NCBI GenBank assembly: GCA_020532085.1
Contig: JAJBAV010000019.1
Coordinates: 1-49,551, forward strand
Reading direction: 5' to 3'
DNA: 49,551 nucleotides
From: Candidatus Cloacimonadota bacterium
GTDB taxonomy: Bacteria; Cloacimonadota; Cloacimonadia; Cloacimonadales; Cloacimonadaceae
Below, piece after piece: positions 3,979 through 35,979 of this stretch. The notes below the pieces were generated by a model, which saw nothing but the letters and a program-made list of their open reading frames with translations, had not been told where the DNA came from and did not search any database. The stretch's first letter is position 1, and every line of letters starts with the position of its first letter. The position numbers were made by a program, and so were the translations under genes.

Positions 3979-4443
3979 ACCTTACGGGTAATGCCCTCAG
4001 AGGGTGTCGATGCAGACTGCGTCTGTATCGACCCCGCCTTGACCTGGGACCGGGACTGGCTATTCCCGCCAAACCTGGATTCCGGGGCCCCGCGTGCTGG
4101 CGCACGCCTCCCCGGAATGACAGGCGTTTGGAACGGGGTGGGTGAGGGACAAGCCTTGGCGGAGGGGTAAACCGGTTTTAAACGGCGCGGGAATATCGGC
4201 GATGGCCTCAGCCACAATGCAGCCAGACCCCTCGCGCCAAGACGGAAGGCGGTGGCTTCAGCCACCGTACCCCAAAACACCGGAGCCAGAAAAAGACGAT
4301 GTCCGGTCGGCTTCAGCCACCGGAGTTGGGACCGGCCTGACCTGGCAGCGGAAAACAGACCGGCGGTTGAAACCGCCGGAGATCGTATCTCCCTGGCCGC
4401 TGATACCGAGGAACGGTGGCTGAAGCCACCGCCTTCCGTCTTG
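3971..4443. repeat. Segmental duplication, second copy
   Basis: This is the repeat of 3105-3577 shifted by 866 bases, with only scattered substitutions (for example the two changed bases near 4018 and 4026). It carries copy 2 of the 202-bp element. Confidence 0.85.
4240..4441 (+). mobile_element. 202-bp terminal-inverted-repeat element, copy 2
   Basis: Same orientation, length and 29-base inverted ends as copy 1. It probably arose by the segmental duplication and not by independent insertion, because the flanking sequence on the left is also duplicated. Confidence 0.7.
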
Positions 4444-11858: not shown

Positions 11859-12008
11859 GGAGTGGTACGCTGAAAAAGGGGGCGGAAAAGTCAAGCAGTT
11901 TTTGTTCCGCCGCCCGTGAACCGGCGGCGCGCAAAAAAAGATTGACACAAAGCCAAGCCTCGCGAGCATCGCCACCTTGGCAGATATCTTCTCAGGCAAG
12001 GAGAAAGC

Positions 12009-19604: not shown

Positions 19605-19680
19605 GGGGCTATAGCTCAGTTGGGAGAGCGGAACGTTCGCAATGTTCAGGCCAGGGGTTCGAATCCCCTTAGCTCCACCA
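19605..19680 (+). tRNA. tRNA-Ala (anticodon CGC)
   Basis: A complete cloverleaf with encoded CCA. Acceptor GGGGCTA/TAGCTCC contains the G3-U70 pair that defines alanine tRNAs. Anticodon stem GAACG/TGTTC, loop TTCGCAA (anticodon CGC, reading GCG), T loop TTCGAAT. It sits 74 bases after valS. Confidence 0.95.
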
Positions 19681-19757
19681 CTCTTGCTTTCGCCGCCGGT
19701 TATTCCAGACCCCCTTTTTCCCACCCTCCCAGGCAAAAATCCAACATCGCCCCCAAT

Positions 19758-19828
19758 ATCAATACGGTATCAATACGGAATCAATACGGATTTCATCCGT
19801 AATGATTCCGTATTGATACCGTATTGAT
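19758..19828. repeat. 71-bp palindromic iteron repeat, left copy
   Basis: Three 11-base units ATCAATACGG(T/A) are followed by a TTTC centre and three inverted units, so the whole forms one long hairpin. It is the exact reverse complement of 31621-31691; identity continues about 7 bases on one side. It lies 78 bases after the tRNA gene and upstream of the glycan operon. Confidence 0.9.
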
Positions 19829-19944
19829 GCTTGGGGCCCAACCGTGGAAAATCAGATTGATCTGCCCCTGTTTATACTGATCGAAACCCTGAATGATACC
19901 CTGACTGATACTCTGAATGATGCCCCGTTTTACCCTGATGTGAA

Positions 19945-20146
19945 AGACGGAAGGCGGTGGCTTCAGCCACCGTTCCCGGGCATCAGCGGCCAAGGAGATA
20001 CGATCTCCGGCGGTTTTAACCACCGGCTTGTTTTACCGCTTAGGGGCAGGCCGATACCAGTTCCGGTGGCTGAAGCCGACCGGACATCGTCTTTCTCATG
20101 CTCCGGTGTTTCGGAGCACGGTGGCTGAAGCCACCGCCTTCCGTCT
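19945..20146 (-). mobile_element. 202-bp terminal-inverted-repeat element, copy 3, inverted
   Basis: It has the same length and 29-base ends as the copies at 3374 and 4240, but the interior reads in the opposite direction and is more diverged (scattered substitutions across the core). Located 15 kb from the others, this copy shows that the element moves or has been dispersed as a discrete unit. Confidence 0.7.
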
Positions 20147-20338
20147 TTCTACCAGGGACTAACTCTCCCTCACCATAACCTGTAACGCTCCGGGCCACAC
20201 CTCCACAACAAATCTTCACTGAGAGCCGAGCTGACCGAAGCGCAGCAAATGATGACAGACAGGCCCGAACATGGGGAAATGCCAGCAATTTTGTGCTTGA
20301 CAGAAGCGGCGCCGCGGATGAGGTTGCGAAATAGGATC

Positions 20339-22801
20339 ATGCGAAGATTTTCGGCTTTCCTTCTGCTCGCGGCGCTGCTGATTGCGGCTCCCGCCCTGGC
20401 GCGGGCAAAAACCCCGCAGAGGGTGGTGCTGAAAGTTTTTGAGCTGCCGGATCCCCGCAAAACGGATGCCTATTCGCGGGCCAATCTGGCGGTGGTGGAG
20501 GCCTTCCGCGAGCGGTTCCCCCACATTGAGCTCAGGGCCTTTTCCGGCATCCAGATCGAAAACATGGACCTCGACGCCGGGCCGCTGATGGCCATCGCCG
20601 GAGGGGTGGCGCCGGATATCCTCTATGTGAATTTCCGCCAGAGCGACACCTATATCCAGAACAATTTCCTCTATCCGCTGGACGGATTTCTGGCTTCCGA
20701 AGACCCTGAAGCGCTGTCTCTGCGGGTGGAAAAGCCTGTCTGGCAGGTGATCCGCCGCGCGCGCAAGGGTGAACAGGCGCAAAAGACCTGGATGCTGCCC
20801 TACGAGACGCTGGTGCGGGTGCTGATGTACCGCAGGGACGTGTTTCGCCGGGCAGGGCTGGACCCGGACAAACCTCCCCGCACCTGGGACGAGTTTTATG
20901 CGTACGCGCGCCGGCTTACCGATCCGGAGCAGGGGGCCTGGGGCACGGTCTTGGCCTCCGGGCCTCAGGCTGCCTACGATTGGCTGCCTTTCTTGTGGGG
21001 CGCGGGCGGTGACGCGGTCACCTACGATCCCCAAATGCAGGAATGGCGGGCTTCTTTTGCCGGTCCCGAGGGTGTTCGGGCTCTGGAATTCTACCTGCGG
21101 CTCGTGGCCACCAAATGGCGTGACAACCAGGGCCGGGAACAGACCGGTTTCGCGCTGCGCGAAGGAGATTGGGGCTATCTCTGGCAGGAAGGCAAGATCG
21201 GCATGCGGATGGACTATCTTTCCCAGCAAAACCTTGGCGGAGCCTACGATCCGAACCTCTATGGCTTCGCGCCCGCCCCGGCCGGGCCTTCCGGACGCGG
21301 CGGCAGCGAGATCAACTGCCGCATGATGGGCATCTTTTCCGGGGCCGGGATCAGCAACAACTCCGGCCTGGGCGACCGCGATCCCGAGGCAGTGCGCCAG
21401 GCCGCCTGGGAATACATCCGCTTTTACGATTCCGAGCAGGCGCGCCGGATCCGCACGAAGGTGATGGTGGACAGCGGCTATGGGCGCATGCAAAACCCTG
21501 TGTTTCTTAAGCGTTACGGCTATGATGAATATCTGCGCTACGCGCCCGCTGGCTGGCTGGAAACCTTCGAGACCGCCATGCGCGAAGGGCGTCCGGAACC
21601 CTTTGGCGACAACTGCCAGAAGGTGTACGAATACATGACACATCCCCTTGAGGAGCTGGTGGCGCGGGACCTTAAGGGCAGGCTGCCACAGGACCAGGAG
21701 CAGCGGCGGAAGCAGATCGCGTCCGTGCTGAGCCAGGGTGAAGCGCGCACCAACCAGGAAATGATAGGCCGGATCCCGCCCGAGACCCAAGCCTTTCGGG
21801 AACGGCTGGCGATGCTGATCGCCAGCGTGATCCTGCTGGCCTTCTGCTTCACCCTCTGGCGGGTTTGGAAACTCCTCACCCCGGAAGCGAAAAGCTCTGC
21901 CAAATTGAGATTTAACCACCGCTTTTGGGTGGTGTTGCTGCTCGCCCCGGCGGTGCTTGCCGTTCTGGTCTGGAAATATCTGCCCATGGTTTCGGGCTCG
22001 GTGATGGCCTTTCAGGATTACCATATCGTGGGGGCCAGCCCCTGGATCGGTTTTGGCAATTTCGCCGCGGTGCTGTTTGATCCGGCCTGGTGGGCGGCTG
22101 TGGGTAAAACACTGTATTACATGGCCTTGCTGCTGGGGCTGGGGTTCCTGCCGCCGCTGGGCCTGGCCATTTTACTGCAGGAGGTTTCGCGGGGGAAAAT
22201 GCTCTACCGGGTGATCTACTATCTGCCCGCGGTGATCAGCGGCGTGATCGTGATCTATCTCTGGAAGCTGCTTTACGACCCCTCCGACGCCGGCATCCTG
22301 AACCAGCTTCTGCTGGCCCTGGGCCTGCCCAAAAGCATGTGGATCAAAGACGAAACGCTGGCCATGCTCTGCGTGGTGTTGCCCACCGTCTGGGCGGGCG
22401 CGGGGCCGGGTTCGCTGATCTATCTGGCCGCGCTGAAAAACATCCCCCACGAGCTCTATGAGGCCGCGGACATCGATGGCGCCGGCTTCCGGGCCAAACT
22501 CCGCCACATCGTGCTGCCCAGCCTGAAAGGGCTGATCATCATCCAGTTCATCTCCGCCTTCATCGTGGCGGCGCAAAGCAGCGATTTCATTCTGGTGATG
22601 ACCTTTGGCGGCCCGAATGAGGCCACCCGGGTGGCAGACCTGATGATCTTTGAGAAGGCCTATCTCTACCTCCGTTTTGGCTTGGCCACGGCGATGGCCT
22701 GGATCCTCAGCCTGCTGCTGATGGGCTTCACCGTCTGGCAGATCAAATATCTGTCCCGCATGGAGTTCCGCACCGCCAGAGATGACCGGGAGGCCGCATG
22801 A
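20339..22801 (+). CDS. Fused sugar-binding protein and ABC permease
   Basis: This 820-aa fusion combines two normally separate parts of a sugar importer. Residues 1-23 are a signal sequence (MRRFSAFLLLAALLIAAPAL). Residues 25-480 are a family 1 (UgpB/MalE-type) solute-binding protein with WDEFYAYARRLTDPEQGAWGT and a late GRMQNPV segment. A linking helix (about 488-507) enters the membrane, and residues 525-810 form a MalF/UgpA-type permease with the EAA loop EAADIDGAGF (about 707-716). The binding protein would thus be tethered outside the membrane to its own channel. The ATG at 20339 is chosen for the signal; the site is weak and 20318 is possible. No ATPase gene is nearby, so a shared MsmX-type ATPase is expected. 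Confidence 0.85.
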   Translation: MRRFSAFLLLAALLIAAPALARAKTPQRVVLKVFELPDPRKTDAYSRANLAVVEAFRERFPHIELRAFSGIQIENMDLDAGPLMAIAGGVAPDILYVNFRQSDTYIQNNFLYPLDGFLASEDPEALSLRVEKPVWQVIRRARKGEQAQKTWMLPYETLVRVLMYRRDVFRRAGLDPDKPPRTWDEFYAYARRLTDPEQGAWGTVLASGPQAAYDWLPFLWGAGGDAVTYDPQMQEWRASFAGPEGVRALEFYLRLVATKWRDNQGREQTGFALREGDWGYLWQEGKIGMRMDYLSQQNLGGAYDPNLYGFAPAPAGPSGRGGSEINCRMMGIFSGAGISNNSGLGDRDPEAVRQAAWEYIRFYDSEQARRIRTKVMVDSGYGRMQNPVFLKRYGYDEYLRYAPAGWLETFETAMREGRPEPFGDNCQKVYEYMTHPLEELVARDLKGRLPQDQEQRRKQIASVLSQGEARTNQEMIGRIPPETQAFRERLAMLIASVILLAFCFTLWRVWKLLTPEAKSSAKLRFNHRFWVVLLLAPAVLAVLVWKYLPMVSGSVMAFQDYHIVGASPWIGFGNFAAVLFDPAWWAAVGKTLYYMALLLGLGFLPPLGLAILLQEVSRGKMLYRVIYYLPAVISGVIVIYLWKLLYDPSDAGILNQLLLALGLPKSMWIKDETLAMLCVVLPTVWAGAGPGSLIYLAALKNIPHELYEAADIDGAGFRAKLRHIVLPSLKGLIIIQFISAFIVAAQSSDFILVMTFGGPNEATRVADLMIFEKAYLYLRFGLATAMAWILSLLLMGFTVWQIKYLSRMEFRTARDDREAA

Positions 22802-25092
22802 GCATCATTGGCAAAGTGGGGCGGCGCTCAACCAAGGTCCGGGCGCTGAACCTGAGCATCCACCTGGTGCTGCTCCTCGGCGCCATTACCATGGTCTATC
22901 CCTTTCTGCTGATGATCTCGGCCTCGCTGCGCAGCAACGTGGACAGCGGCCGCCTCAGCCTGCTGCCACAATATCTGCACAACGACGAGGCGCTGTTCCA
23001 GAAATACTTGGAATCCCGCTACAATGAAGAAAGCAGCCGTCTGGCGGACAACCATGCCGGACGCTGGCTCTCCTTTGCCGAGTCGCGTTTGCCTCAGAAG
23101 CTGCATCCCTCTCTGCTGAAGGATTGGCAGGAATTCCTGGCTGCCCGGCCGCAGTCAGTTTACGATTACTACGTGGCCGAACATTACGGAAGAGGGGTCT
23201 ATCCGCTCAACCAGCGCCGCTACCGCAAACTGCTCCGGCAGGAAAACGGCAACGACCTTACCGCTTTCAACCGGCGCTACAACACCGGCGCCCAGAACTG
23301 GGAACAGATCGTGGTGGAGGAAAAGGAGATCCTGGGCCGCAACTACGTGAGCGTGAACGACGGCTATCTGGGCCGTTTCCAGGCTTTCAAGAAAGACGTC
23401 GGAGAGCGCCACCGCAACCATGTGAACCTCGACGGCGCCTTTGTGCAGATGGAGCTGGCCCCCGCTTACGGCGGCGATCTGGCCGCCTTCAACGCCGCCA
23501 GCGGTTTGGAGCTGAACTCTTGGCAGGAAGTGGTTTTGAGCGAGTTCTGCCCCGCGGAGGGAGATCCTCTGCGACCCGCCTGGCTACACTATGTGCGGGA
23601 AGCCCTGAACATCCATCACATCAGCCTTGATGCCTCTGCAGACCCCGCCTTTCAAGCCATGCTGCGGGAAAAATACGCCAGCATCTCGCTGCTCAACTCC
23701 ACCTGGCACACAAGCTATGCGGATTTTAGCGCGGTGCGCGTCCCCAGGCAGATCCCGGACAGCGGCGCCATGGTGGAGGACCTCACCTGGTTCGTGGAAA
23801 ACGCCACCGCGCCGGAACATCTGCGGGTGCGCAACCTGGGCAACGAATTCCGGGCCTGGCTGCGGGAAAAATACACGAACGTGGCGGCCCTTAACGCCTC
23901 CTGGGAGCAGGGTTTTGACCGCTGGGAGGAGATTCCGCTCCCGGCCACCACTCCGACGGATAATCTAGCCTGGCAAAGCGACTGGCTGGAATTTGCCCAG
24001 GGCCCGGGCCAAAGCTGGCTGGAATTGCTGCCCAGCGCTCAAAGCGAGTGGCTGCTTTTGCTTGCGCAGCGTTTCCCCGGGCAGGGCGGTAAACTGGATT
24101 TGGGGAAGGTAAACCAATATTTGGGAAGCAATTACAGATCCGAAGAAGATATCTATCCCAGTCCCCGCCTGCCCCGCGATCCCCACCCGGCAGAGCTTTG
24201 GCGGGAATTTGTGGCCCAGCGTTCCACTCCCCATCAGTTGAAGTTTTCGCCCGCAAAGGAAGCGGTGCAGACCTGGCGGGAATTTTTGCGGGCAAGATAC
24301 GCTGCCACAGATAGCTTGAACCGCGCCTGGCATCTGGTCCCGACAAGCTTTGAGGATATCCCGCTACCCGTCCGGCAGATCGAGGCGCAAACCTTCCTGA
24401 AGCACAAAAGCGAGATCAAAAGGGAGTTTCTCACCCGCAATTACGCCATGGTGCTGGACCAGATGTTCAACGACGCCCGCTCCCTGCGCAACACTGCCAT
24501 CTATACCCTGCTGGCCATCCTGCTGGCCGTTACCGTCAATCCCCTCGCGGCCTACGCCCTCAGCCGCTTCAAGCCCCGGCTCAGCTATCAGATCATCCTG
24601 CTGTTCATGCTCACCATGGCTTTCCCGGCGATGGTGATGGGCATTCCGAACTTCCTGATGCTAAAGCGTTTGAACCTGCTCAACACCTTTTGGGCGCTGG
24701 TGCTTCCCGCCGCCGCGGACGGATATTTCATCTTCCTGCTAAAAGGCTTTTTCGACAGCCTGCCGCGCGAGCTCTATGAAAGCGCCAGCCTCGACGGGGC
24801 CGGGGAATTCCGCCTCTTCTGGCAGTTCACGCTCTATCTTTCCAAACCCATCCTGGCCGTGATCGCCCTCGGAGCCTTCAACGCCGCCTACCGCAATTTC
24901 CTCTTCGCCTTCATCGTTTGCCAGGACCAAAGCATGTGGACCCTGATGGTGCACATCTACGAACTGATGCAGCGGGCCAGCCTCTCGGTGGGCTACGCGG
25001 CCCTGGTGATCGCCGCCATCCCCACTTTGGCGGTCTTCGTCTTCTTCCAGAATATCATCATCAAGGGGATCGTGATCCCGATGGAAAAATAA
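22798..25092 (+). CDS. MalG-type sugar permease with ~500-residue extracytoplasmic insertion
   Basis: The 764-aa second permease overlaps the fusion gene by ATGA. TM1 (about 20-42) is followed by an unusual ~510-residue loop (about 48-555) before the normal core (about 560-764), which has the EAA loop ESASLDGAGEF (about 660-670) and ends KGIVIPMEK. MalG-like proteins usually have about 280 residues and a short first loop. The loop holds roughly six degenerate repeats of the type FxxWLRxKYxxxxxLNxxWxxxxxxWxxIxLP; the clearest are at about 285-320, 350-385 and 494-530. These look like the KYG...LN..WGT segments I know from GH42-like glycosidases. The loop is probably a substrate-capture domain; this is inference. 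Confidence 0.85.
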   Translation: MSIIGKVGRRSTKVRALNLSIHLVLLLGAITMVYPFLLMISASLRSNVDSGRLSLLPQYLHNDEALFQKYLESRYNEESSRLADNHAGRWLSFAESRLPQKLHPSLLKDWQEFLAARPQSVYDYYVAEHYGRGVYPLNQRRYRKLLRQENGNDLTAFNRRYNTGAQNWEQIVVEEKEILGRNYVSVNDGYLGRFQAFKKDVGERHRNHVNLDGAFVQMELAPAYGGDLAAFNAASGLELNSWQEVVLSEFCPAEGDPLRPAWLHYVREALNIHHISLDASADPAFQAMLREKYASISLLNSTWHTSYADFSAVRVPRQIPDSGAMVEDLTWFVENATAPEHLRVRNLGNEFRAWLREKYTNVAALNASWEQGFDRWEEIPLPATTPTDNLAWQSDWLEFAQGPGQSWLELLPSAQSEWLLLLAQRFPGQGGKLDLGKVNQYLGSNYRSEEDIYPSPRLPRDPHPAELWREFVAQRSTPHQLKFSPAKEAVQTWREFLRARYAATDSLNRAWHLVPTSFEDIPLPVRQIEAQTFLKHKSEIKREFLTRNYAMVLDQMFNDARSLRNTAIYTLLAILLAVTVNPLAAYALSRFKPRLSYQIILLFMLTMAFPAMVMGIPNFLMLKRLNLLNTFWALVLPAAADGYFIFLLKGFFDSLPRELYESASLDGAGEFRLFWQFTLYLSKPILAVIALGAFNAAYRNFLFAFIVCQDQSMWTLMVHIYELMQRASLSVGYAALVIAAIPTLAVFVFFQNIIIKGIVIPMEK

Positions 25093-25103
25093 AGAGGTTT
25101 CAG

Positions 25104-28100
25104 ATGCACAACGAAAAGATCCACCTCACCCGGATCAAACGCCTGCTGGAGCGGCAGAAACCGCTTCTGATCAAGGACAAGCTGCCCCTCGAGGCCGGAT
25201 TTTCCGCCACCGGCGGGGATTTTCAGCCCCTGGCGCTCAACGCTGTCTGGGGCAAGCCTTGGCAGACCGGCTGGTTCCGGATCAGCGGCAGGATACCGGA
25301 AAGCTTTGCGGGCCAGGATTACAGGCTGCTCTTCGACTGCGACGGCGAGGCCTGCTTGCTGCTGGATGGAGTTCCATACCAGGGTTTCACGCCCAAGGTG
25401 GACTGGTATCACAAGGCCGCCAAGAATCTGCTGCCCCTGGCCTCCATCCGCAAGCCCGGAGAGGATCTCAGCCTGCTGATCGACGCCTCCGCCAACGACC
25501 TCTTCGGCGCGCAGAAAGAGGAATACCGCCTGCGCGAGTGCGCCCTTGTTACCTTTGATGAGCCTCTGTATCAAAGCTTGCTGGACATCGCCCTGCTGCT
25601 GGATCTGGCGGAAGCATTGCCCGAAAAAACTGTCCGCCGCCAGCGTCTGATCTTTGGCCTGGACCAGGTTTGCAATGCCTGGAACAGCGATCAGGAGAGG
25701 GTGAATGCCATCCTGGGCGACCTGCTGTCCGCGCCCGCCCATGCCAGCGCGCTCACCGCCTTCAGCGTGGGGCACGCGCATCTCGATCTGGCCTGGCTGT
25801 GGCCACTGAGAGAAACCCGGCGCAAGGGTGCCCGCACCTTCGCCAACGCGCTGAGGCTGCTGGAGCAATATCCCAGCTACGTATTCGGCGCTTCCCAGGC
25901 CCAGCTGTACCAGTGGATCAAAGCAGACCATCCCGCCCTTTACGCTCAGGTCAAGGAGCGGGTGAAAGAAGGCCGCTGGGAGATCCAGGGCGCTTCCTGG
26001 GTGGAGTTTGACACCAATCTCATCTCCGCGGAATCGATAATCCGCCAGTTCATGTATGGCAAACGCTTCTTCGAGAGCGAGTTCGGCCAGGCCCCCCGCG
26101 TTTTGTGGCTGCCCGACTGCTTCGGCTTTTCCGGCAATCTGCCCCAGTTCCTCAAAGGTTGCGGCGTGGATTGGTTCATCACCCAGAAACTAAGCTGGAA
26201 CGAGACCAACACCTTTCCCCACCACCTCTTCGTTTGGGAGGGGATCGACGGTTCGCGGGTGCTGGCGCATCAGCTTCCCACCAACGATTACAACTTCTCG
26301 AACAACCCCTCCTCTTTTCTGGAAACGGAAAAACGCTATGCCCAGAGCGAGCTCTGCGACGCCTTTCTGAACCTCTACGGGATTGGCGACGGCGGCGGCG
26401 GGCCCACCCGCGACCACATCGAATATGGCCTGCGCCAGCAAAGCCTCGAGGGCGTGAGCAAATTCCGCAGCGCCAGCTCGGCGGATTTCTTCGCCCACCT
26501 CTCCGGGCTGGATCCCAGCCAGCTGCCGGTGGCCTATGGCGAGCTCTATCTGGAATTTCACCGCGGCACCTACACCACCCAGGCCCGCATGAAACAGGAT
26601 AACCGCGGCAGCGAGAAGCTCCTGGCCGCGGCTGAGTTCATGGCCGTGCTGGCCGGACATGCCTATCCGGAACCGCTGCGGCGAATCTGGCAGGACACCC
26701 TGCTGCTGCAATTCCACGACATCATCCCCGGTTCTTCGATCACGCCGGTTTACGAGGATGCCCACACCATCAGCGCCGCCAATCACGCGCAGCTGAAGGA
26801 CTACCTGGCCGCTACGGCGCGCGAGCTTGCGGATAGCGGAACACCTTGCCAGGAAGCCAGTTATCTGGTGTTCAACCCTTCCAACCAGGAACTGGATGAA
26901 TGGCACGCCTTCCCCCAAGAACTCCAGGGCCTGGTGCCGCTGAATGAATACAGCACCGAACTGGCCTCTCTGGAAACGGAAAACGCCCTGTTGGCCAGGA
27001 TCCGGGTACCGGCCTGGGGTTGCCTGCTGCTGCAATTCTCCCCAAACGGCTATCTGCCCAAAACCGAGGCCAGTACAGCTTCCCTGACCCTGGAGAACCG
27101 CTTTCTCAAGGCGGAATTGACCGAGACCGGCGGCATCAGATCCATCTGGGATAAAGAACTGGAGCGCGAACTGCTGATTTCGGAATCCAACCTGCTCCTG
27201 CTCTGGGAAGACGAGCCCAACAACTGGGGCGCCTGGGACATCAATCATTTCTATCGCGACACGGCACCCCAAACAGCCGGCGGCGCAACTTTAAACCAAG
27301 CCCTCAGTTTCACGCTGGAAGGGGAGTTCAGCCGCGTGGTGCAGGATATCCGCATCGGCAAATCCAGCCTGCGCCAGACCATCGAATTGCGCTGTGATGA
27401 CCGCCTGCTGCGCGTCAGCCACGAGATCGCCTGGCAGGAAAAGCACAAAATGCTGCGCACGCATTGGTTCACCGCGGTGCACAATGGCATCGCCAGCTAC
27501 GGCATCCAGGCCGGCGTGATCAAGCGCAGCAGCAAGCCTAAAAGCGCGGTCGAGGCAGCCCAGTTTGAGGTTCCCGCCCAACGCTTTGCGGACCTTTCCC
27601 AGCCGGATCACGGCTGCGCGCTGCTCTGCGACGTCAAATTCGGCTACCGCATCATGGACGGCCAGATGGAATTGAACCTCCTGCGCAGCCCCGCCGACGT
27701 CGATCCCACCGCCGATATCCACAGCCACAGCTACAGCTACGCCTTTTATCCCCACAGCGGCGATTACGAACACAGCGATGTTTTCCGCCAGGCCGAGCGC
27801 CTGGCCCACAGCCTGATCGTGGTGCCGCTGCAAACCCTGCCCGAAAAGTTGCCGCAGCCCCTGTTCCGCTTGGACAGCGACCACGTGAACCTGGATACGG
27901 TCAAGCCCGCGGAGGACGGCGGCGGCATCATCCTGCGCTTCCACGAATACAAGGGCCAAAGCGGCACCGCGCTGCTTTACTGCGCCCAAACCCAGTCCCA
28001 GGCAAGAGTTACCGACCTGCTGGAGCAACCGCTGGAAGCGGATCCGATCCAACTCGACCCCTACTATCCGCTCAGCCTGGAATTCCGGCCTTTCGAGGTG

Positions 28101-28130
28101 AAAACCATCCGTTTGGAGGAACTGCCATGA
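25104..28130 (+). CDS. GH38 alpha-mannosidase
   Basis: This 1008-aa cytosolic enzyme (no signal peptide) hydrolyses terminal alpha-linked mannose. The zinc site is visible as HAHLD (His226 and Asp228 likely ligands), and the nucleophile as Asp338 in WLPDCFGFSGNLPQ. The middle domain contains RGTYTTQARMK and ILPGSSI-like HDIIPGSSI, both usual in the family, and the C-terminal beta-sandwich runs to residue 1008. The N-terminal ~200 residues are a jelly-roll seen in the bacterial type. RBS is AAGAGG, 11 bases after the permease stop. With GH20 and GH130 it suits removal of mannose from N-glycan fragments inside the cell. Confidence 0.95.
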   Translation: MHNEKIHLTRIKRLLERQKPLLIKDKLPLEAGFSATGGDFQPLALNAVWGKPWQTGWFRISGRIPESFAGQDYRLLFDCDGEACLLLDGVPYQGFTPKVDWYHKAAKNLLPLASIRKPGEDLSLLIDASANDLFGAQKEEYRLRECALVTFDEPLYQSLLDIALLLDLAEALPEKTVRRQRLIFGLDQVCNAWNSDQERVNAILGDLLSAPAHASALTAFSVGHAHLDLAWLWPLRETRRKGARTFANALRLLEQYPSYVFGASQAQLYQWIKADHPALYAQVKERVKEGRWEIQGASWVEFDTNLISAESIIRQFMYGKRFFESEFGQAPRVLWLPDCFGFSGNLPQFLKGCGVDWFITQKLSWNETNTFPHHLFVWEGIDGSRVLAHQLPTNDYNFSNNPSSFLETEKRYAQSELCDAFLNLYGIGDGGGGPTRDHIEYGLRQQSLEGVSKFRSASSADFFAHLSGLDPSQLPVAYGELYLEFHRGTYTTQARMKQDNRGSEKLLAAAEFMAVLAGHAYPEPLRRIWQDTLLLQFHDIIPGSSITPVYEDAHTISAANHAQLKDYLAATARELADSGTPCQEASYLVFNPSNQELDEWHAFPQELQGLVPLNEYSTELASLETENALLARIRVPAWGCLLLQFSPNGYLPKTEASTASLTLENRFLKAELTETGGIRSIWDKELERELLISESNLLLLWEDEPNNWGAWDINHFYRDTAPQTAGGATLNQALSFTLEGEFSRVVQDIRIGKSSLRQTIELRCDDRLLRVSHEIAWQEKHKMLRTHWFTAVHNGIASYGIQAGVIKRSSKPKSAVEAAQFEVPAQRFADLSQPDHGCALLCDVKFGYRIMDGQMELNLLRSPADVDPTADIHSHSYSYAFYPHSGDYEHSDVFRQAERLAHSLIVVPLQTLPEKLPQPLFRLDSDHVNLDTVKPAEDGGGIILRFHEYKGQSGTALLYCAQTQSQARVTDLLEQPLEADPIQLDPYYPLSLEFRPFEVKTIRLEELP

Positions 28131-29593
28131 TCCCCCGTCCAAAACAAATGCGCGTGTTCAAAAAGCGCTTCTGGATGACCTCCAGGATCGATTACCAGCG
28201 CAACGCGGAGCTGCCTGAGAAGCTCTTCCGCTTTCTCGCGGCGGACCTCGACGCTTACTATCACAAGCTGATCGGCGTGGGTTTCCTCGACGACGACCAC
28301 AGCACGAGCGTCAGGTTCACCCTCGCCCCCTTCACCAGGAAAGTGCCGCCCGAATATTATTTCCTGAAGGTGGACACCCTGGACATCCAGATCCAGGCTG
28401 AATCGCCAAGCGGCCTCGTCCACGCGTTGCAAACCCTGAAACAGCACCTGTACCTGGCCTATTATTACGTCCAGGACGAGTTTGGCGAACCCGGCGACCT
28501 GCCCTGCCTGGAGATCCGGGACTGGCCCAGCTATCCCTGGCGGGGGCTGCATCTGGACGTGAGCCGACATTTCTTTGACTTCAGGTTCGTGCAGCGTTAT
28601 CTGGACTGGATGTCGCGGTCCAAGCTGAACAAGTTTCACTGGCATCTTTCCGATGACCAGGGCTGGCGCCTCGAAAGCCGGAAATTCCCCCGCCTGCATG
28701 AAATCGGCGCCTGGCGCAAAGAGGCTGACGGCAGCGTCCACGGCGGCTGGTACACCCGCCGCCAGGTGCAGGCGGTGCTGGATCACGCGGCCCTGCGCGG
28801 GATCGAGGTGATCCCCGAGATCGACATCCCCGGCCACGCCATGGCGATACTGGCCGCCTATCCTGAACTGGCCTGCGTTCCGCGGGATTTCGAGGTCCCC
28901 TGCGTCTGGGGCATTTTCGAAGACATCCTCTGCGCCGGCAAGGATGAGGTGATCGATTTTTTGAAAGAGCTGTTCAGCGAAGTGGCGGAACTCTTTCCCG
29001 GCCAGTATGTGCATCTGGGCGGCGACGAAGCTCCCAAGCAGCGTTGGAAAGACTGCCCCCACTGCCAGGCCCGGATCAAAAACCAAGGCCTCGCCGGTGA
29101 GGAAGAGCTGCAGGGCTGGCTGGTGAAAACCCTCGCCCGGCACCTGCGGGGCCTGGGCAAAACGGTGATCGGATGGGACGAGATCCTGGACGGCCAACCG
29201 TGCCAGGATCCAGTGGTGATGGCCTGGCGCGGTGACGGGATCGACGCCGCCCGCAAAGCTCACGACAACGGCAACCGCTACATCCTCTGCCCCTACACCA
29301 AGCTCTATTTCGACGCCCGCAACAATGAGTACGAAACCATCGGCACCGACCAGATCATCCTTTGGGGCGATGTGCTCAAATTCCGGTTCCAGGACTACAG
29401 CTTTCAACGCAAGGAACTCCTGCTGGGAGCCCAGGCCAACGTCTGGACCGAACATCTGGCCAATAAAGCAGACCTGAAGGAAAAGGTTACCCATCGCCTT
29501 CGTCCCCTGGCGGAAATTCTCTGGAATGGCGAACCCGTCGAAGACGTCCGGGAATTCTGGGATCGCTGGAGAGATCTGAATTTCACGCTATGA
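28127..29593 (+). CDS. GH20 beta-N-acetylhexosaminidase
   Basis: The 488-aa enzyme removes terminal beta-GlcNAc or GalNAc using substrate-assisted catalysis. The catalytic Asp300-Glu301 pair lies in YVHLGGDEAPK, preceded by the family strands RGLHLDVSRHFF, LNKFHWHLSDDQGWR (about 165-180) and EIDIPGHA. It has the small N-terminal domain and the TIM barrel but no signal peptide, so it acts in the cytosol, unlike many GH20 enzymes, which are exported. Start overlaps the GH38 stop by ATGA, so translation is coupled. Confidence 0.95.
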   Translation: MIPRPKQMRVFKKRFWMTSRIDYQRNAELPEKLFRFLAADLDAYYHKLIGVGFLDDDHSTSVRFTLAPFTRKVPPEYYFLKVDTLDIQIQAESPSGLVHALQTLKQHLYLAYYYVQDEFGEPGDLPCLEIRDWPSYPWRGLHLDVSRHFFDFRFVQRYLDWMSRSKLNKFHWHLSDDQGWRLESRKFPRLHEIGAWRKEADGSVHGGWYTRRQVQAVLDHAALRGIEVIPEIDIPGHAMAILAAYPELACVPRDFEVPCVWGIFEDILCAGKDEVIDFLKELFSEVAELFPGQYVHLGGDEAPKQRWKDCPHCQARIKNQGLAGEEELQGWLVKTLARHLRGLGKTVIGWDEILDGQPCQDPVVMAWRGDGIDAARKAHDNGNRYILCPYTKLYFDARNNEYETIGTDQIILWGDVLKFRFQDYSFQRKELLLGAQANVWTEHLANKADLKEKVTHRLRPLAEILWNGEPVEDVREFWDRWRDLNFTL

Positions 29594-30552
29594 AACGCCA
29601 CCCCGGCAATCCGCTGATCACCAGGCGGGACATCGTTTCCAGCCATCCCGCCCTGCGCGACGTTTCCTCGGTCTTCAATCCCGGCGGCACTTGGTTCGAG
29701 GGGCAAATCCTCCTCCTGCTGCGGGTGCAGAACCGCGCCCGGGAAACCTTGTTCGTGAAAGCCTGGTCGGAAAATGGCGTGGAATTCCGCGTTGAGGGGG
29801 AACCGCTGCCGCTGCTGGGCTTGGAAGCCTGTCCCCACCTGATTTACCACGTTTACGATCCCCGCATCACCCATCTGGAAGGTATTTACCACGTGATCTG
29901 CGCCCTGGATACCGATCAGGGCTGCTGCCTGGGCTGGTTTTCCACTCCGGATTTTGCCGCTTTGGATTTTCGCGGCCTGGTTTCGGCTGCCGACACCCGC
30001 AACGGCGTCCTCTTCCCGGAGCGGATAGGCGGGCGCTATCTGAGGTTCGAACGCCCCAACACCACGATGATGGCCGACGGAGTTAAAACCGGGTCCCGCA
30101 TAGTCTGCTCCTCATCGGAAGACCTGCTGAACTGGTCTGCCCAAGAGGAGGTGTTTTCCGGCCGGCCCCACTTTTGGGATGAACTGGTCGGTTCCGGTCC
30201 GCCGCCGCTGAAAACCGCGCAGGGTTGGCTGCACCTCTATCACGGCGTGGCCACCCATTTCGGAGCCGCAAATATCTATCAGGCAGGCGTTTCCCTGCAT
30301 GATCTCAAGCGACCCTGGCTCACCCTCGCGAGGGGTAGATACAATGTTCTGGAACCCCGCGAAAGCCATGAACTCTGCGGCCAGGTGCCCAACGTGGTTT
30401 TCCCCACCGCCGCCCTGGCACTGCAAACCGACAGCCGCGGTTTTGTGGACCCAAGCTCCGATATATACGTTTATTACGGCGCGGCCGATACCTGCGTCTG
30501 CCTCGCCACCACCAACGTTGAAAAACTTTTGGAGGCCGTCCATGCGCCCTAA
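29590..30552 (+). CDS. GH130 beta-mannoside phosphorylase
   Basis: The 320-aa five-bladed beta-propeller enzyme uses phosphate to release mannose 1-phosphate from beta-mannosides. Family markers are the RHPGNPLIT start, YDPRIT with the proposed acid Asp90, NGVLFPERIGGRYLRFERPN (about 136-155) and a final YYGAADTCVCLATT. GH130 includes enzymes for mannosyl-glucose, mannooligosaccharides and mannosyl-N-acetylglucosamine. The neighbouring GH38 and GH20 favour Man-GlcNAc, the core left by N-glycan trimming, but the subfamily cannot be fixed from sequence alone. It overlaps the GH20 stop by ATGA. Confidence 0.93.
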   Translation: MKRHPGNPLITRRDIVSSHPALRDVSSVFNPGGTWFEGQILLLLRVQNRARETLFVKAWSENGVEFRVEGEPLPLLGLEACPHLIYHVYDPRITHLEGIYHVICALDTDQGCCLGWFSTPDFAALDFRGLVSAADTRNGVLFPERIGGRYLRFERPNTTMMADGVKTGSRIVCSSSEDLLNWSAQEEVFSGRPHFWDELVGSGPPPLKTAQGWLHLYHGVATHFGAANIYQAGVSLHDLKRPWLTLARGRYNVLEPRESHELCGQVPNVVFPTAALALQTDSRGFVDPSSDIYVYYGAADTCVCLATTNVEKLLEAVHAP

Positions 30553-31621
30553 AACACTTGCCGCATTGTTGTTAACGCTCTGCGGAACCCTGTTCGCGGA
30601 GACTTTTCCCGTTCCGGGCCTGCCCTTCGCTCCGCTTTCCTATCCCTGTTTTCCAGCCCCTGAAACCCCGCGCATCGATGGCTGGATCGATGACCCCGCC
30701 TGGTCCGCCGCCCCTTGGAGCGCCAGCTTCACCGATATTGAGGGCAGCCTAAAACCCTCTCCCCACTTGGATACCAGGTTTAAAATGCTCTGGGACGGCG
30801 AGGGCCTCTACATCGCCGCCAGGCTGGAGGAACCGCAGCTCTGGGCCACCCTCACCGAGCACGACGCCGTGATCTTTTGGGACAACGACTTCGAGGTTTT
30901 CCTCGATCCGAACGGCGACACCCACCACTACTTCGAGCTGGAGATCAACGCCCTGAACACGCTTTGGGACCTCTTTCTGGTGCAGCCCTACCGCGACGAA
31001 CACAGCTCCCTAAACGGCTGGGAAGCCCACGGCGCCAAAACCGCGGTCGGCCTCGAGGGCACCCTGAACGATCCTTCGGACCTCGACACAGCCTGGAACT
31101 TGGAGATCTTCCTGCCCTGGCAGGCTGTGGCTGAATTGGCTGGAACGTCCTGCCCGCCGCGCTCAGGCGACTACTGGCGGATCAATATCTCGCGGGTGCA
31201 GTGGACCACTGAAGTGGCGGAGGGCAACTATCGCAAAGTGGCCGGAATTCCTGAATTCAACTGGGTTTGGAGCCCTCAGGGCCTCATCAACATGCACTAT
31301 CCGGAACGCTGGGGCCTGGTTTGGTTTATGGACGCCCCCAGTCCAGACCGCGCTTGGGAACCTTCCCTGCCCGAGATCCTGCCCGCGGAAGAATACCTGC
31401 GCCAGGTGTATTACGCCCAAAAACAACACCTGCTGGATCACGGCAGCTATTCCATCTCCACTTCTGAACTGGGCCTGGCTCCTTTTCACCACCGGGGAAA
31501 GATCCACCTGCCCCGGCTGGAAGCCACTTCCCGCTCCTTCTGCGCCACCCTGGAAACCGGGGACCTTCCCACCCTGGTCATCACGCAATCCGGACGCCTG
31601 ATCCGGCTTCCGCTCCGGTGA
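30542..31621 (+). CDS. Secreted CBM9-like carbohydrate-binding protein
   Basis: The 359-aa protein has a signal peptide (about 1-19, ending LFAETF). It is followed by a family 9 carbohydrate-binding-like domain (about 40-250): PRIDGWIDDPAW, YIAARLEEPQLWA, DNDFEVFLDPNGDTHHYFELEINALNT and WNLEIFLPW are the usual landmarks. The remaining ~100 residues are unassigned. It starts inside the 3' end of the GH130 gene with GGAGG 6 bases upstream, so it belongs to the operon and is its only fully exported product. It may bind the glycan outside the cell. The final base of its TGA is the first base of the 71-bp palindrome. Confidence 0.85.
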   Translation: MRPKTLAALLLTLCGTLFAETFPVPGLPFAPLSYPCFPAPETPRIDGWIDDPAWSAAPWSASFTDIEGSLKPSPHLDTRFKMLWDGEGLYIAARLEEPQLWATLTEHDAVIFWDNDFEVFLDPNGDTHHYFELEINALNTLWDLFLVQPYRDEHSSLNGWEAHGAKTAVGLEGTLNDPSDLDTAWNLEIFLPWQAVAELAGTSCPPRSGDYWRINISRVQWTTEVAEGNYRKVAGIPEFNWVWSPQGLINMHYPERWGLVWFMDAPSPDRAWEPSLPEILPAEEYLRQVYYAQKQHLLDHGSYSISTSELGLAPFHHRGKIHLPRLEATSRSFCATLETGDLPTLVITQSGRLIRLPLR

Positions 31622-31721: not shown

Positions 31722-32543
31722 TCAGCTCTGTTTTTCCTGGCCGTCGTCCGGAGGAAGGGGGGATTCTTCTGGCGGCCAGCTGCTTTGCAGGGATTTTTGC
31801 TCGGGTGGCCAGTCTGCTTCCGGCGGTGCCTGATCCACAGCCTGGGGCTGCGGTTTCTTTTTACGCAGCAGGAAATAGAGGGCAACGCCCAACCCGGCAA
31901 GCAGAGGGAGCACCCAGAGCAGGGAACCGAGCTTTTTCGCCGCGGCCGCAGCGGGGCTGGGGACTTTGTATTGCAGATAGATTGAATCGCCCTCGGCGCC
32001 TTCGAATTCCCAACTGTAAACTCCCAGGGTGTCGTTCCGGACCTTGGCGTTGGTGCTCACCACCTCGAACGGGACTTTCCAGGTGACCTTGTTTTCCACT
32101 GCATTCGCCAGCATCACATCCTTTTCATCTTGCGGCGCGTTGTCGCCAGCTCTCCAAACTTTGAACACATCGGGTTTATAGGATATGGTAAACAAGCTGT
32201 GGCCGGTGGTCTTTTCCTCCCTCACCACAGACGGCAGAGGAGCTTTGGTGGTGTCCGCGAGCAAGGGAAACTCATTTAAATCTGATATCCGGGCGAAATG
32301 TTTTTCGGATTTGGAGCCCTTTGTCTGCTCATCCTCATAGGCAGTTGTTACCAAGCCATATTTGGCAAATCTGACCGAGTCCTCTTTGACAGTTGCAATA
32401 TGGTCATCAGCATAGTACTCTTTGGTCACTTTGGTAATGAAGCTAAAATCCACGGAATTATCCTTGTTGACGGTGAACACGGATTCGGTGAAGACGCACC
32501 CCGCCAGCAGCAACGCGGCGCAGAGAACAAGGGTCAGGCGCAT
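31722..32543 (-). CDS. Dual-anchored lipoprotein, LppM-like
   Basis: The 273-aa protein has a lipoprotein signal (MRLTLVLCAALLLAGC) with AAAGGAGG ahead of the ATG. A ~180-residue beta-rich ectodomain starts VFTESVFTVNKDNSVDFSF. Near the C-terminus is a membrane helix (about 208-227, LLWVLPLLAGLGVALYFLL), then a basic KKK stop and a proline-rich tail with two WPPE motifs. The order lipobox, domain, C-terminal helix resembles the LppM/DUF3153 type; that match is by general pattern only. Both anchors should hold it in the inner membrane with the tail in the cytoplasm. TTGACG lies upstream at about 32613. Confidence 0.75.
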   Translation of the reverse strand: MRLTLVLCAALLLAGCVFTESVFTVNKDNSVDFSFITKVTKEYYADDHIATVKEDSVRFAKYGLVTTAYEDEQTKGSKSEKHFARISDLNEFPLLADTTKAPLPSVVREEKTTGHSLFTISYKPDVFKVWRAGDNAPQDEKDVMLANAVENKVTWKVPFEVVSTNAKVRNDTLGVYSWEFEGAEGDSIYLQYKVPSPAAAAAKKLGSLLWVLPLLAGLGVALYFLLRKKKPQPQAVDQAPPEADWPPEQKSLQSSWPPEESPLPPDDGQEKQS

Positions 32544-32718
32544 GAAACCTCCTTTGGTTTGAACCCTGATGGATTGTTTCATCCCTAGCAGGCGGCTGTG
32601 GACCGTCAAGCAAAAATTTCCTTGACGCCTGCAGGTTTGTGATAAAGGTTGGACGCAGGCGCTGGACGTGAGATATTTTCGGGAAGCGCAGACATAAGGT
32701 GCCACGAGCAAATAGATC

Positions 32719-35700
32719 ATGAAATACATTCCGCCCTTCATCATCGCCAAGCTGCGGCGCGGGAAACTGCGCGGGCGGTTGTATGCCTATATCCTGGTTT
32801 GCGAACTGGCCAATCTCGGGCAGTTGACCGCTGGTTTTAAGGCCAGAGGCAAAAAGGGCGCGAAGGATTTAGCCCGGTGGCTGGACGAACTTTGGATGGA
32901 GCCGCTGGAGGAAGTTGAGCGGCGGGGCGGCCTGATCGCCAGATGGCAGGGAGATTCACTGTGGGCGCTGTTTCCCCAGGCCAGGCCGCGGGAGACGGTG
33001 GCGGCGCTGGAGTTCATCAGATCCACGTTCAGGCAGACCACCCTCAAGCGCGAAAAGCTGGGTGGACCGGTACCCCGGATCAAGCTGCTGGTCGGTTGCG
33101 GCCGCGTGGATTGGCAGATATTTTCCAATCAGTTGCAGCATGAATACACATTTTCTGGCCGGGAAGTGGACGCTCTGGAGCTGCTTCCGCGAGGGCGAAA
33201 ACAATTGCTGCTTACGCCCGCGGCCTCAGCCAAACTGGGCGCGGCGGGTCTGCTGGACTGCAGAGGAAACCCGGTTCGAGGGATCAAGCCGAAATCCGCT
33301 GACCAGCCCAAATTGATTTCAGATGAGAACCTCGCCCTTCTGAGCAAGTTCGAGCATCCCCGCTTCCGCGACTGGGGTCCCGGAACAGATTTCCGCCAAG
33401 TGGCTTGCTGCCAGATCAAACTCAGGTGGGATGATCCCTCCGCCGTGGACCAACTGATCCAGGATATGGAACTGCTCGCCATCACCTTCGGCGCTTTCGT
33501 GCGCGGCGTTCACAGAAGCGGCAACGAATATACCGCCATAGCCTGGTTCGGTGTGCCCCGCATAGACAGCAAAGCGACTTACAACTCCTGCCGCGTGGCA
33601 CTGGAAGCCAGCAAAAAATACCCCGCCATCAGGCACGGGATCGCTGTGGGGAAGGTGTTTGCGGGAAAAGTGGGGGGAGAGGATTTCAGCCGTTACGCTG
33701 TTTTTGGAGCGGTGGAAGAGCAGGCGCGGAAGTTGTGCGCGATGACTCAGCCAGGTGAAACGATCACCGACCAACAGATCCAGGCGGAATTGAGCGATCA
33801 GTTCAATTTCCTGCCTCTGGCGAAGTCCGGTCGTTCGCGTAAATCCGGTGACCCCCAAGTTTTCAAACTTGCCGGCATGCCCACTCCTGTCAAGACCAGA
33901 GGCATCTTTGTGGGCCGGAAAAAAGAACTGGCTGATTTGAAGACCCTCATCCGGCAGAGCCTGAAATGTGGAAACAACCTGTGCGTCCACATCTGCGGAA
34001 CCCCGGGAATAGGCAAAACCCGGCTTTCCGAAGAATTGATCGCTTCCCTGAAGAATGATGCCGTCAATGTTTTCAAGCTGTGGTGCGATCCGGATCAGCC
34101 CCCGCTGGATCTGCTGAGCCAGCTGTTGAAGCAGCTCTTTCCCATCAGCGAAGATCCCGCCAGGGCCGGGGAGGAATTCAGCGCCCTCTGGCAAAACTGG
34201 GCCGGGAAAGACACGGATCTGCGGAGTCACAAAGCGTTCATAGGCAATCTGTTGGGCCTGCATTGGCCGGGTTCGGAGCTGGAACTGACGCCACCGGAAC
34301 TGCGTGTGGCCAGGATCATGGACTCCTGCGCGCTGGTGCTGCGTGAAGCAGCCTCCCGCCAGCCGCTGCTCATCCAGATCGATGACCTGCAGTGGATCGA
34401 CGGCCACTCCCGGGAGATCTTTGAACGCCTGGGCCAGGCAGGCATCAGACGCACCTGCATTATGGCCACGTCCCGCTATCTGGAGGATGGCTCCGTCCCC
34501 GAGCTGCGGGCCGAAAACTTCACTTCCCACAGGCTGGACCTTGGCCCGCTGAACCGACAGGACACCCTGGACCTGCACAAAACCTTGCTGGGGGTGGAAG
34601 CGCTGCCTCCCGCCACCGTTGAGATAATCAACCAGAAATCTGACGGCAATCCCTTCCTGGTGGAACAGGTGATCGCCCTGTGCCTGGAACTGGGGTTGGT
34701 GAACGCGCGGGGCGAACTGGACCTGCCGGAGGATTGGGAAAAATATGGCCTGACCGACATTCTGCTGCTGCGCATCGATCGCCTGGCCGCCAAAACCCGC
34801 GCCTGCCTTTTCAACGCCAGCGTTCTGGGCATGCGCTTCAATGTCCGGGTGTTGTCGCGGATGCTGAATTCCGACCCGCGTCGGGAATTGGCCGGAGGCG
34901 CCCAAAACCACATCTGGCAGGACCTCGGCGAGGTTCTGTACATCTTTTCCCACGTTCTCATCCAAGAAGCCGCCTACGCCCGCATCCAGGGCAAAGAACT
35001 GCCCCGCCTGCATCTCAGCGCCGCCCAGGCCATGGAATATGTGTTTGAACTGGAACTGGACGAACATGCCGCCGAGATCGCTCAGCACTATGAAAAAGCG
35101 GGCCATCGGGCCAAAGCCGCCGCCTACTACGACCGCGCCGCGGACCACGCCTGGGACAGCAGTTTTCTGGATCGCGCCGAAACGCTCTACTCCAGGGCGG
35201 TCGCCCTCAGCGCCGCCGCGGAAGGCAAAACCAGCGCCAACCACTGCGAGTACACCTTCCATCTGGCCCTGCTTTACCACTACATGCTGCGCCATAAGGA
35301 AGCGGAACCGCTCTATCTGGAAGTGAGGCGCCTGGCGCGCCGCATCCACGGCGAAGGATCCCCCGCCCTCAGTCCCTATCTGAACAACCTCGGCCGCTTC
35401 TATAAAGACACCGGGCGCTTTGCCGAGGGCGAAAAACTGCTGCGGCGCTCCCTGGCCATGGAGCGGGAAATGAACCCTGTGAGCTCCAATGTGGCGGACA
35501 GGATAAACAACCTGGGGCACATGCACGGAATTCGGAAGCAGTTTGACCAAGCCGAAAAACTATTTTTGGAAGCCCTGGAAATCATGGAAAAAAACTACTC
35601 TCCGGAGCATTTCTTCACCGGCACCTTATGCGGCAACCTGGGCGGGGTTTATTACCAACTGGGACGGCTGGAAGAAGCGCTCCCGCTGCTGGAACGGGCG

Positions 35701-35979
35701 GTGGAGATCACGCGCAAGAACCATGGTCCCGACCATCCGGTGACGGCCATCTATCTTAGCAATCTGGCCAAAGTGCATCTCGCCTTGAAAAACTTCGGGC
35801 AGGCTGAAACGCTCTTTCTCAAAGCCCTGGAAAACATCCTCGGACCCTTTGGGGAACTGCATCCCAAAACCCTGGTCGTGGTGGAACTGCTACAGGCTTT
35901 GTACACGGAAATGGGCGATCCGGCCCAGGCGAAATTTTACTCCCGCTGGCTGGGCCGGGGAAAACCGGTTGACGTTTGA
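32719..35979 (+). CDS. Cyclase-like / ATPase / TPR signalling protein
   Basis: This 1086-aa cytosolic protein has two class III cyclase-like domains (about 20-185 and 225-380), a STAND-type ATPase (Walker A GTPGIGKT 427-434; Walker B LLIQIDDLQWID with Asp555-Asp556) and a C-terminal set of tetratricopeptide repeats (about 800-1080), recognised by LNNLGRFYKDTGRFAEGEKLL and its repeats. The architecture is that of AfsR/LuxR-like adenylate-cyclase ATPases. Both cyclase domains look degenerate: the first metal Asp is Cys-Glu in ILVCEL, and the second domain has SGNEY where GDxxx is expected. Nucleotide cyclisation is therefore doubtful; a sensory or scaffold role is more likely. Divergent from the lipoprotein gene. 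Confidence 0.8.
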   Translation: MKYIPPFIIAKLRRGKLRGRLYAYILVCELANLGQLTAGFKARGKKGAKDLARWLDELWMEPLEEVERRGGLIARWQGDSLWALFPQARPRETVAALEFIRSTFRQTTLKREKLGGPVPRIKLLVGCGRVDWQIFSNQLQHEYTFSGREVDALELLPRGRKQLLLTPAASAKLGAAGLLDCRGNPVRGIKPKSADQPKLISDENLALLSKFEHPRFRDWGPGTDFRQVACCQIKLRWDDPSAVDQLIQDMELLAITFGAFVRGVHRSGNEYTAIAWFGVPRIDSKATYNSCRVALEASKKYPAIRHGIAVGKVFAGKVGGEDFSRYAVFGAVEEQARKLCAMTQPGETITDQQIQAELSDQFNFLPLAKSGRSRKSGDPQVFKLAGMPTPVKTRGIFVGRKKELADLKTLIRQSLKCGNNLCVHICGTPGIGKTRLSEELIASLKNDAVNVFKLWCDPDQPPLDLLSQLLKQLFPISEDPARAGEEFSALWQNWAGKDTDLRSHKAFIGNLLGLHWPGSELELTPPELRVARIMDSCALVLREAASRQPLLIQIDDLQWIDGHSREIFERLGQAGIRRTCIMATSRYLEDGSVPELRAENFTSHRLDLGPLNRQDTLDLHKTLLGVEALPPATVEIINQKSDGNPFLVEQVIALCLELGLVNARGELDLPEDWEKYGLTDILLLRIDRLAAKTRACLFNASVLGMRFNVRVLSRMLNSDPRRELAGGAQNHIWQDLGEVLYIFSHVLIQEAAYARIQGKELPRLHLSAAQAMEYVFELELDEHAAEIAQHYEKAGHRAKAAAYYDRAADHAWDSSFLDRAETLYSRAVALSAAAEGKTSANHCEYTFHLALLYHYMLRHKEAEPLYLEVRRLARRIHGEGSPALSPYLNNLGRFYKDTGRFAEGEKLLRRSLAMEREMNPVSSNVADRINNLGHMHGIRKQFDQAEKLFLEALEIMEKNYSPEHFFTGTLCGNLGGVYYQLGRLEEALPLLERAVEITRKNHGPDHPVTAIYLSNLAKVHLALKNFGQAETLFLKALENILGPFGELHPKTLVVVELLQALYTEMGDPAQAKFYSRWLGRGKPVDV

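Follow-up and report, generated by a model that had tools for sequence, protein, structure and literature searches.

Gene organization of the operon

The window is a stretch of 49,551 nucleotides, contig C19 (JAJBAV010000019.1) of a 2.81-Mb Candidatus Cloacimonadota genome (assembly GCA_020532085.1) with a completeness of 99%. Positions 20339-31621 hold an operon of six genes, which encodes the binding and membrane parts of an ATP-binding cassette (ABC) importer, three enzymes of families GH38, GH20 and GH130, and an exported CBM9-fold protein, and which we read as a probable N-glycan utilization system. All six genes point in one direction; four of their junctions overlap and the remaining gap is 11 bp. 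The gene after the operon (31722-32750) is on the opposite strand. The genes and their parts are as follows.

20339-22801, + strand: fusion of a substrate-binding protein (SBP) with a MalF-type permease; ATG at 20339, frame open from 20249
20339-21808, + strand: SBP domain (SBP_bac_1, Pfam 7e-24), exported or membrane-tethered, N-terminal half of the fusion; boundary approximate
21884-22801, + strand: MalF/UgpA-type CUT1 permease domain, C-terminal half of the fusion (BPD_transp_1, 4e-11)
22798-25092, + strand: MalG/UgpE-type CUT1 permease with a large periplasmic insert (BPD_transp_1, 2e-10; GH42 stretches)
23101-24369, + strand: six tandem modules within the MalG-type insert (AlphaFold2 model; module hidden Markov model, HMM)
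25104-28130, + strand: GH38 alpha-mannosidase, cytosolic, Ams1 type (Pfam GH38N 2e-87, plus mid and C domains)
28127-29593, + strand: GH20 beta-N-acetylhexosaminidase, cytosolic (Pfam GH20 3e-100; GGDE)
29590-30552, + strand: GH130 of an uncharacterized clade sister to GH130_2 (Pfam GH130 5e-37; tree; residues)
30542-31621, + strand: CBM9-fold protein, exported, with a pilin-like C-terminal head (ATG 30542; Pfam CBM9_1 2e-11)

The SBP-permease orthologues of relatives start at the ATG equivalent to 20339, and the GH38 start at 25104 is the first in-frame ATG past the permease. A hydrophobic leader can be read in the sequences of the CBM9 protein and the SBP fusion, and none was seen by eye at the start of GH38, GH20 or GH130. 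A first-pass annotation made from the letters alone had reported six tightly packed genes of these identities, three enzymes without signal peptides, and no SusCD, endoglycosidase or ATPase within the operon. The coordinates, Pfam domains and leaders agree with it on each of these points; its gene description did not include the insert of the MalG-type permease. Neither the operon genes nor the inspected flanking open reading frames of the window, the latter judged by eye, include a SusC/SusD pair, so the locus is not a Bacteroidetes-type polysaccharide utilization locus. A scan for promoters and terminators gave matches no better than those in shuffled sequence.

Conservation in Cloacimonadota

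A tblastn search of relatives with the six proteins recovered the six-gene order from about 17 genomes, which represent several genera; hence the operon is not a chance assembly. The importer is present in 45 of 124 Cloacimonadota genomes and the window-type GH130 in 37, all of which have the importer. This co-occurrence has a hypergeometric probability of 4e-24, uncorrected for relatedness, which inflates its significance. It exceeds simple linkage, because some genomes carry importer and enzymes at split loci. Specifically, the two are on separate contigs in G027 and G032, and in G102 and G103 the importer, GH38 and GH20 are together while GH130 and the CBM9 protein lie at another place. GH38 is found in every complete operon.

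Two variants of the enzyme genes were seen in relatives. In G050 (L084, 14644-17085), one reading frame of 813 residues covers both GH20 and GH130, which may be naturally fused. In another Cloacimonadota family, GHL10-like putative glycosyl hydrolases adjoin GH130 or CBM9 (L085, 1360-2328; L086, 7182-8168; L092, 3756-4709).

The enzymes and the chemistry of GH130

The GH38 protein has yeast Ams1 as its best PDB match (5e-132) and carries the metal-binding His/Asp motif HAHLD and the nucleophile Asp motif PDCFG, which places it in the Ams1-type GH38 group. The best PDB match of the GH20 protein is 6q63 (4e-98), and its catalytic Asp-Glu pair is present (GGDE, in GGDEAP). GH130 membership is equally clear, with a Pfam score of 127.9 bits (cut-off 26) and an invariant catalytic residue, D90. 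The GH130 protein matches TM1225 best among PDB entries (2e-41), and its match to GH130_1 entries (4e-23) is far below that to GH130_2 enzymes (2e-41).

In a maximum-likelihood tree that held no GH130_1 sequence and no BT1033, the window-type GH130 proteins (38 rows) form a clade with support 100/99, which joins the GH130_2 enzymes TM1225, Uhgb_MP and RaMP2 with support 96/93. The window-type and GH130_2 clades each have 100% ultrafast bootstrap. The subfamily tree suggested by the first-pass annotation thus answers in two parts: no grouping of the protein with mannosyl-glucose enzymes was seen, GH130_1 being absent from the tree, and the protein is sister to GH130_2, not inside it. We found no characterized member of the window-type clade.

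The clade has the signature WDEL[IV]GxGPPP. Like GH130_2, it has Tyr next to the catalytic Asp (YDPR) and the RNGVLFP motif, features in which beta-1,2 enzymes differ (ED, NKD), and the RNG, RPN and YHG motif residues are invariant. One residue departs from this pattern. A Lys or Arg precedes the IG/VG motif in seven of seven GH130 proteins of known structure (1vkd, 4udg, 5ayd, 5b0p, 9fj8, 7fip and 9eqq). At that position Leu predominates in the window-type clade, and Phe, Asn, Tyr, Met, Trp or Ile occurs in other members, with Arg in 8 and Lys in none of 108 readable loci, some of them duplicates. One of the two GH130 search patterns contained WDE, which makes WDE a selected feature; the residue after it was not selected. 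Glu198 of WDE was considered as a new catalytic base, and this idea was weakened by GH130 proteins that keep the Lys and have the same WDE (WDEMK, in G055 and G060).

It is established that GH130 enzymes cleave Man-beta-1,4-GlcNAc when N-glycans are catabolized (PMC10154615; PMC10619541), and the kept motifs make phosphorolysis to mannose 1-phosphate plausible for the window enzyme. Since the Lys/Arg is lost and the clade is sister to GH130_2, phosphorolysis is possible rather than established, though the other motifs are kept. The best-surviving alternative accepts N-glycan uptake and takes GH130 as an inverting hydrolase, a beta-1,4-mannosidase by which no energy would be saved. The missing basic residue speaks for it, as GH130 enzymes without basic phosphate ligands are hydrolases and the loss of these ligands accompanies hydrolysis (PMC4599007). 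Against it stand the invariant RNG, RPN and YHG residues and the Tyr by the catalytic Asp, which is the GH130_1/2 state, whereas BT3780-type hydrolases carry Glu. Moreover, neither a BT3780-like glutamate pair nor obvious compensating carboxylates were identified in the window GH130, and R192 and H194, invariant residues beside the site, could stand in for the lost candidate ligand. We regard hydrolysis as possible though doubtful.

GH130 proteins of other types in Cloacimonadota adjoin glycosyltransferase-like genes (L198, 2738-3673; L199, 1424-2353; L200, 3914-4852), which suggests a role in mannoside synthesis or turnover.

The importer and its probable ATPase

The SBP domain and the two BPD_transp_1 permeases, with a MalK/UgpC-type ATPase encoded elsewhere as their putative partner, make up a type I ABC importer of the CUT1 family. 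The MalF-type domain scores 86 bits against the NCBIfam UgpA model, under that model's cut-off. The MalG-type permease is interrupted between its first predicted transmembrane helix and the remainder by an insert of about 500 residues, as located in an alignment of 28 homologues. Pfam recognizes three GH42 stretches in the insert (E 2e-15). An AlphaFold2 model built with the 28 homologues has mostly 80-95 predicted local distance difference test (pLDDT) in the insert and is poor in the membrane part. In this model, residues 102-524 form six repeats of about 65-70 residues each, folded as helix-strand-helix-helix, and a module HMM run on relatives counts six copies or four, depending on the lineage.

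Foldseek gave the modules weak matches to fragments of GH50, GH42 and GH14 proteins; a module resembles part of those barrels, no more. The whole permease model had no significant match (best E 0.16). Across relatives, the transmembrane part is 70-99% identical and the insert 34-82%, counted over the shared part only in four-module relatives. This contrast fits a pore that is conserved and a periplasmic domain that diversifies, and the insert may help to hold a large glycan.

The only UgpC/MalK-type ATPase found in the genome is an orphan gene (G000:C4:51233-52357), which scores 483 bits against the UgpC model (cut-off 432) and is conserved in 109 of the 124 genomes. The other long ABC ATPases of the genome were considered as partners and are not of MalK type. 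A second CUT1 permease pair lies on contig C42, where it adjoins an aminotransferase-like gene and not glycan genes. The operon permeases would pair with the distant ATPase, which probably serves the C42 pair as well, by analogy with A. bescii, in which CUT1 importers appear to use one ATPase in common (PMC11212667). Another permease in the window (10878-12029) was rejected as a second sugar importer; it is PhnE-like and adjoins a nucleoside phosphorylase-like gene.

The CBM9 protein

The CBM9 protein has a signal-peptide-like start. Its model (pLDDT 90) has the CBM9 fold, with 4jpq as the best Foldseek match (E 3e-11) and CBM9 proteins among the other matches. After the fold, a long helix and a small sheet (residues 279-356, about 31376-31609) match type IV pilin heads (6xxd and 4noa) with a Foldseek probability of 1.0 and E of 0.03-0.05. 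The exported protein probably binds glycan outside the cytoplasm.

Neighborhoods of the GH130 clade in other phyla

Conserved GH130 parts were scanned against the genomes of 84,980 species, which yielded 150 confirmed relatives; 80 loci were fetched, 54 of them outside Cloacimonadota. The clade extends to about a dozen phyla, mostly uncultured: Ignavibacteriota, Zixibacteria, Latescibacterota, Eisenbacteria, Aminicenantes, KSB1, Calditrichota, Neomarinimicrobiota, Acidobacteriota, Planctomycetota, Lentisphaerota, Gemmatimonadota and others. When the neighbors at the 54 loci were clustered, the commonest companions were the sodium:solute symporter (SSS, 27 loci) and the CBM9-pilin-like protein (26), which could be aligned across phyla. 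They were followed by GH94 (18), GH38 (15), PNGase F-like proteins (9), GH125 (8), ROK (8), GH3 (7), GH92 (6) and GH20 (4); GH99, GH47 and TonB receptors are also present.

The PNGase F-like neighbors were identified by Pfam and by PDB matches to 3ks7, PNGF-II and 1pnf. A PNGase F-like gene is also present in 14 of the 124 Cloacimonadota genomes. In the metagenome-assembled genome of 'Ca. Tenebribacter davisii' (G093), this gene has a signal-like start and lies upstream of the same type of GH130, the CBM9 protein and the importer, all in one 13-kb cluster. An N-glycan substrate is supported because the GH130 clade sits with PNGase F-like genes and with families that demannosylate N-glycans or alpha-mannan. 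N-glycan catabolism after import, as proposed in the first-pass annotation, gains from this co-localization and from its occurrence in one Cloacimonadota cluster with the importer.

A rival reading takes the substrate to be a different mannose/HexNAc (N-acetylhexosamine) glycan, for instance fragments of alpha-mannan or a surface polysaccharide of bacteria or archaea. GH38, GH92, GH125 and GH99 act on yeast alpha-mannan too (PMC10154615), and the window genome itself has no PNGase F, GH18 or GH85 that we could find. However, PNGase F-like genes occur in the same clusters, at nine loci of other phyla and in the importer-bearing Cloacimonadota cluster, and N-glycans are the only substrates of the PNGases characterized so far (PMC10154615). 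We consider such a substrate unlikely.

In many phyla, a GH94 phosphorylase gene is usually directly upstream of this GH130 (L173, 7513-9996, and 17 similar loci). If GH94 is specific for chitobiose and not for cellobiose, it would replace GH20 and make the breakdown of the core phosphorolytic.

Proposed pathway and points against it

The operon is likely to be a cytosolic N-glycan utilization system fed by ABC-imported glycans. Gene content and order, domain families, the placement of the clade, the linkage to PNGase F-like genes and the modular build of the insert are computed results; we infer the substrate, the direction of transport, the order of reactions and the ATPase partner from the sequences, and the pathway would run as follows. 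Fragments of N-glycans (of high-mannose, paucimannose or trimmed complex type) would be set free outside the cell, here probably by other organisms. They would cross the outer membrane, bind to the SBP domain of the MalF-type fusion, and be imported by that fusion and the MalG-type permease, powered by the shared UgpC/MsmX-type ATPase. The MalG-type insert would project into the periplasm, probably holding or guiding the large branched glycan, and the CBM9/pilin-like protein would probably bind glycan outside the cytoplasm. In the cytosol, GH38 would remove alpha-mannose, and GH130 would split Man-beta-1,4-GlcNAc(2), either phosphorolytically or, possibly, by hydrolysis. GH20 would take off beta-GlcNAc, whether from the ends of antennae or, where release was of the PNGase type, as the second GlcNAc of the chitobiose.

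Several observations, in addition to the loss of the basic residue in GH130, weigh against this pathway. The best structural matches of the SBP domain are generic sugar-binding proteins and not NgtS, the binding protein of a known N-glycan importer; NgtS is not among its PDB matches at E 1e-6, and the domain has no close PDB relative. Some genomes have the importer without an adjoining window-type GH130, GH38 or GH20. In G024, which belongs to the same genus, a secreted GH18 chitinase gene lies between GH130 and CBM9 (L069, 12157-13950). Finally, protein-family searches, on which all genome-level absences rest, found in the window genome no PNGase F, GH18 or GH85 (the search did not extend to PNGase A or GH163), no NagA above cut-off and no NagB; there is one ROK-family gene. 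Glycan release is thus probably the work of other organisms or of a family outside the search. Together with the remote position of the sole UgpC/MalK-type ATPase found, the negative result for releasing enzymes means that the operon is not self-contained, contrary to the first-pass annotation.

A role of the operon in processing chitin oligosaccharides or beta-mannan, in which GH20 would do the main work and GH38 and GH130 would contribute side activities, is very improbable: GH20 enzymes often act on chitobiose, the G024 operon includes the chitinase gene and a GH130_2-type enzyme adjoins the importer in G064, but the chitinase insertion occurs in only one of the examined operons, GH38 belongs to every complete one, and no mannanase family is among the 25 commonest Pfam families of the neighbors.

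If the N-glycan reading is true, Cloacimonadota and many anaerobic candidate phyla that live in digesters, sediments and groundwater would share, as an ecological trait, the scavenging of glycans from eukaryotic glycoproteins, which is known mainly in bacteria associated with hosts, and a largely uncultured phylum would have a testable substrate. The uncharacterized GH130 clade may then serve to make or cut Man-beta-1,4-GlcNAc, and the permease architecture could reveal how large branched oligosaccharides are accommodated by an ABC importer. A bolder proposal, which we offer tentatively, is that the GH130 clade is a distinct class of N-glycan-core beta-mannosidase/phosphorylase whose anion site has been rebuilt. 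Its supply in Cloacimonadota would come through an unprecedented importer, whose fused binding domain and solenoid of glycosidase-like modules in the MalG-type subunit would jointly handle large branched glycans.

Other features of the window

A MITE-like element (resembling miniature inverted-repeat transposable elements) with perfect 32-nt inverted ends lies at 19942-20149. It occurs again at 3381-3568 and 4247-4434, with a single copy at 2793. Seven occurrences of its 20-nt core, GGTGGCTGAAGCCACCGCCT, fall within the window, where 0.01 would be expected; most of them are arranged as inverted pairs whose spacing is constant. The interval that separates tRNA-Ala (19605-19680) from the operon holds a 43-nt inverted repeat (19749-19837) built of repeated TCAATACGG units; its complementarity is 91% and its loop is 3 nt long. 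A large protein encoded at 32719-35979, with an AAA_16 ATPase domain, TPR repeats and weak cyclase-like matches, is possibly a signaling protein.

Comparison with known systems

The first-pass annotation had contrasted the operon with SusCD-based uptake, which overstates its novelty, as S. pneumoniae already has an N-glycan ABC importer, NgtS/NgtP1/NgtP2, along with GH38, GH20, GH92 and GH125 enzymes (PMC5215778). Both systems have an SBP and two permeases, which in S. pneumoniae import Man1-5GlcNAc, and genes for an intracellular alpha-mannosidase and hexosaminidase; a table in that source lists no ATPase with the permeases. In S. pneumoniae, however, the SBP is a separate lipoprotein with no tandem-module insert reported in the importer, importer and enzymes occupy two loci, EndoD (GH85) releases the glycan, and the enzyme locus reads GH20-ROK-GH38-GH125-GH92-GH29 without GH130. 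The window, in contrast, has an Ams1-type GH38 and a GH130.

A Man-GlcNAc phosphorylase is known from Bacteroides (PMC10619541). The window GH130 resembles GH130_2 enzymes of N-glycan context in its catalytic Asp within Tyr-Asp-Pro-Arg and its RNGVLFP motif, and differs from them in belonging to a sister clade and lacking the Lys before IGAGP. The two permease pairs with a single UgpC/MalK-type ATPase elsewhere resemble the shared-ATPase CUT1 importers of the MsmK/MsmX type (PMC11212667, PMC7658222, PMC5730181), from which the SBP fused to the MalF-type subunit and the six-module insert in the MalG-type subunit set the window importer apart. A literature search found no earlier example of either feature.

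Among the closest systems are also the gene clusters of PNGase F, GH38, GH130, CBM9 and SSS found here in Zixibacteria, Latescibacterota, Eisenbacteria and others. They share the GH130 clade, a homologous CBM9 protein, an Ams1-type GH38 and, in some, GH20, but have the sodium:solute symporter in place of the ABC importer and include a PNGase F-like gene. The window operon would join pneumococcal-type import and the Bacteroides-type GH130 step, with a differently built importer and a GH130 from an unstudied clade.

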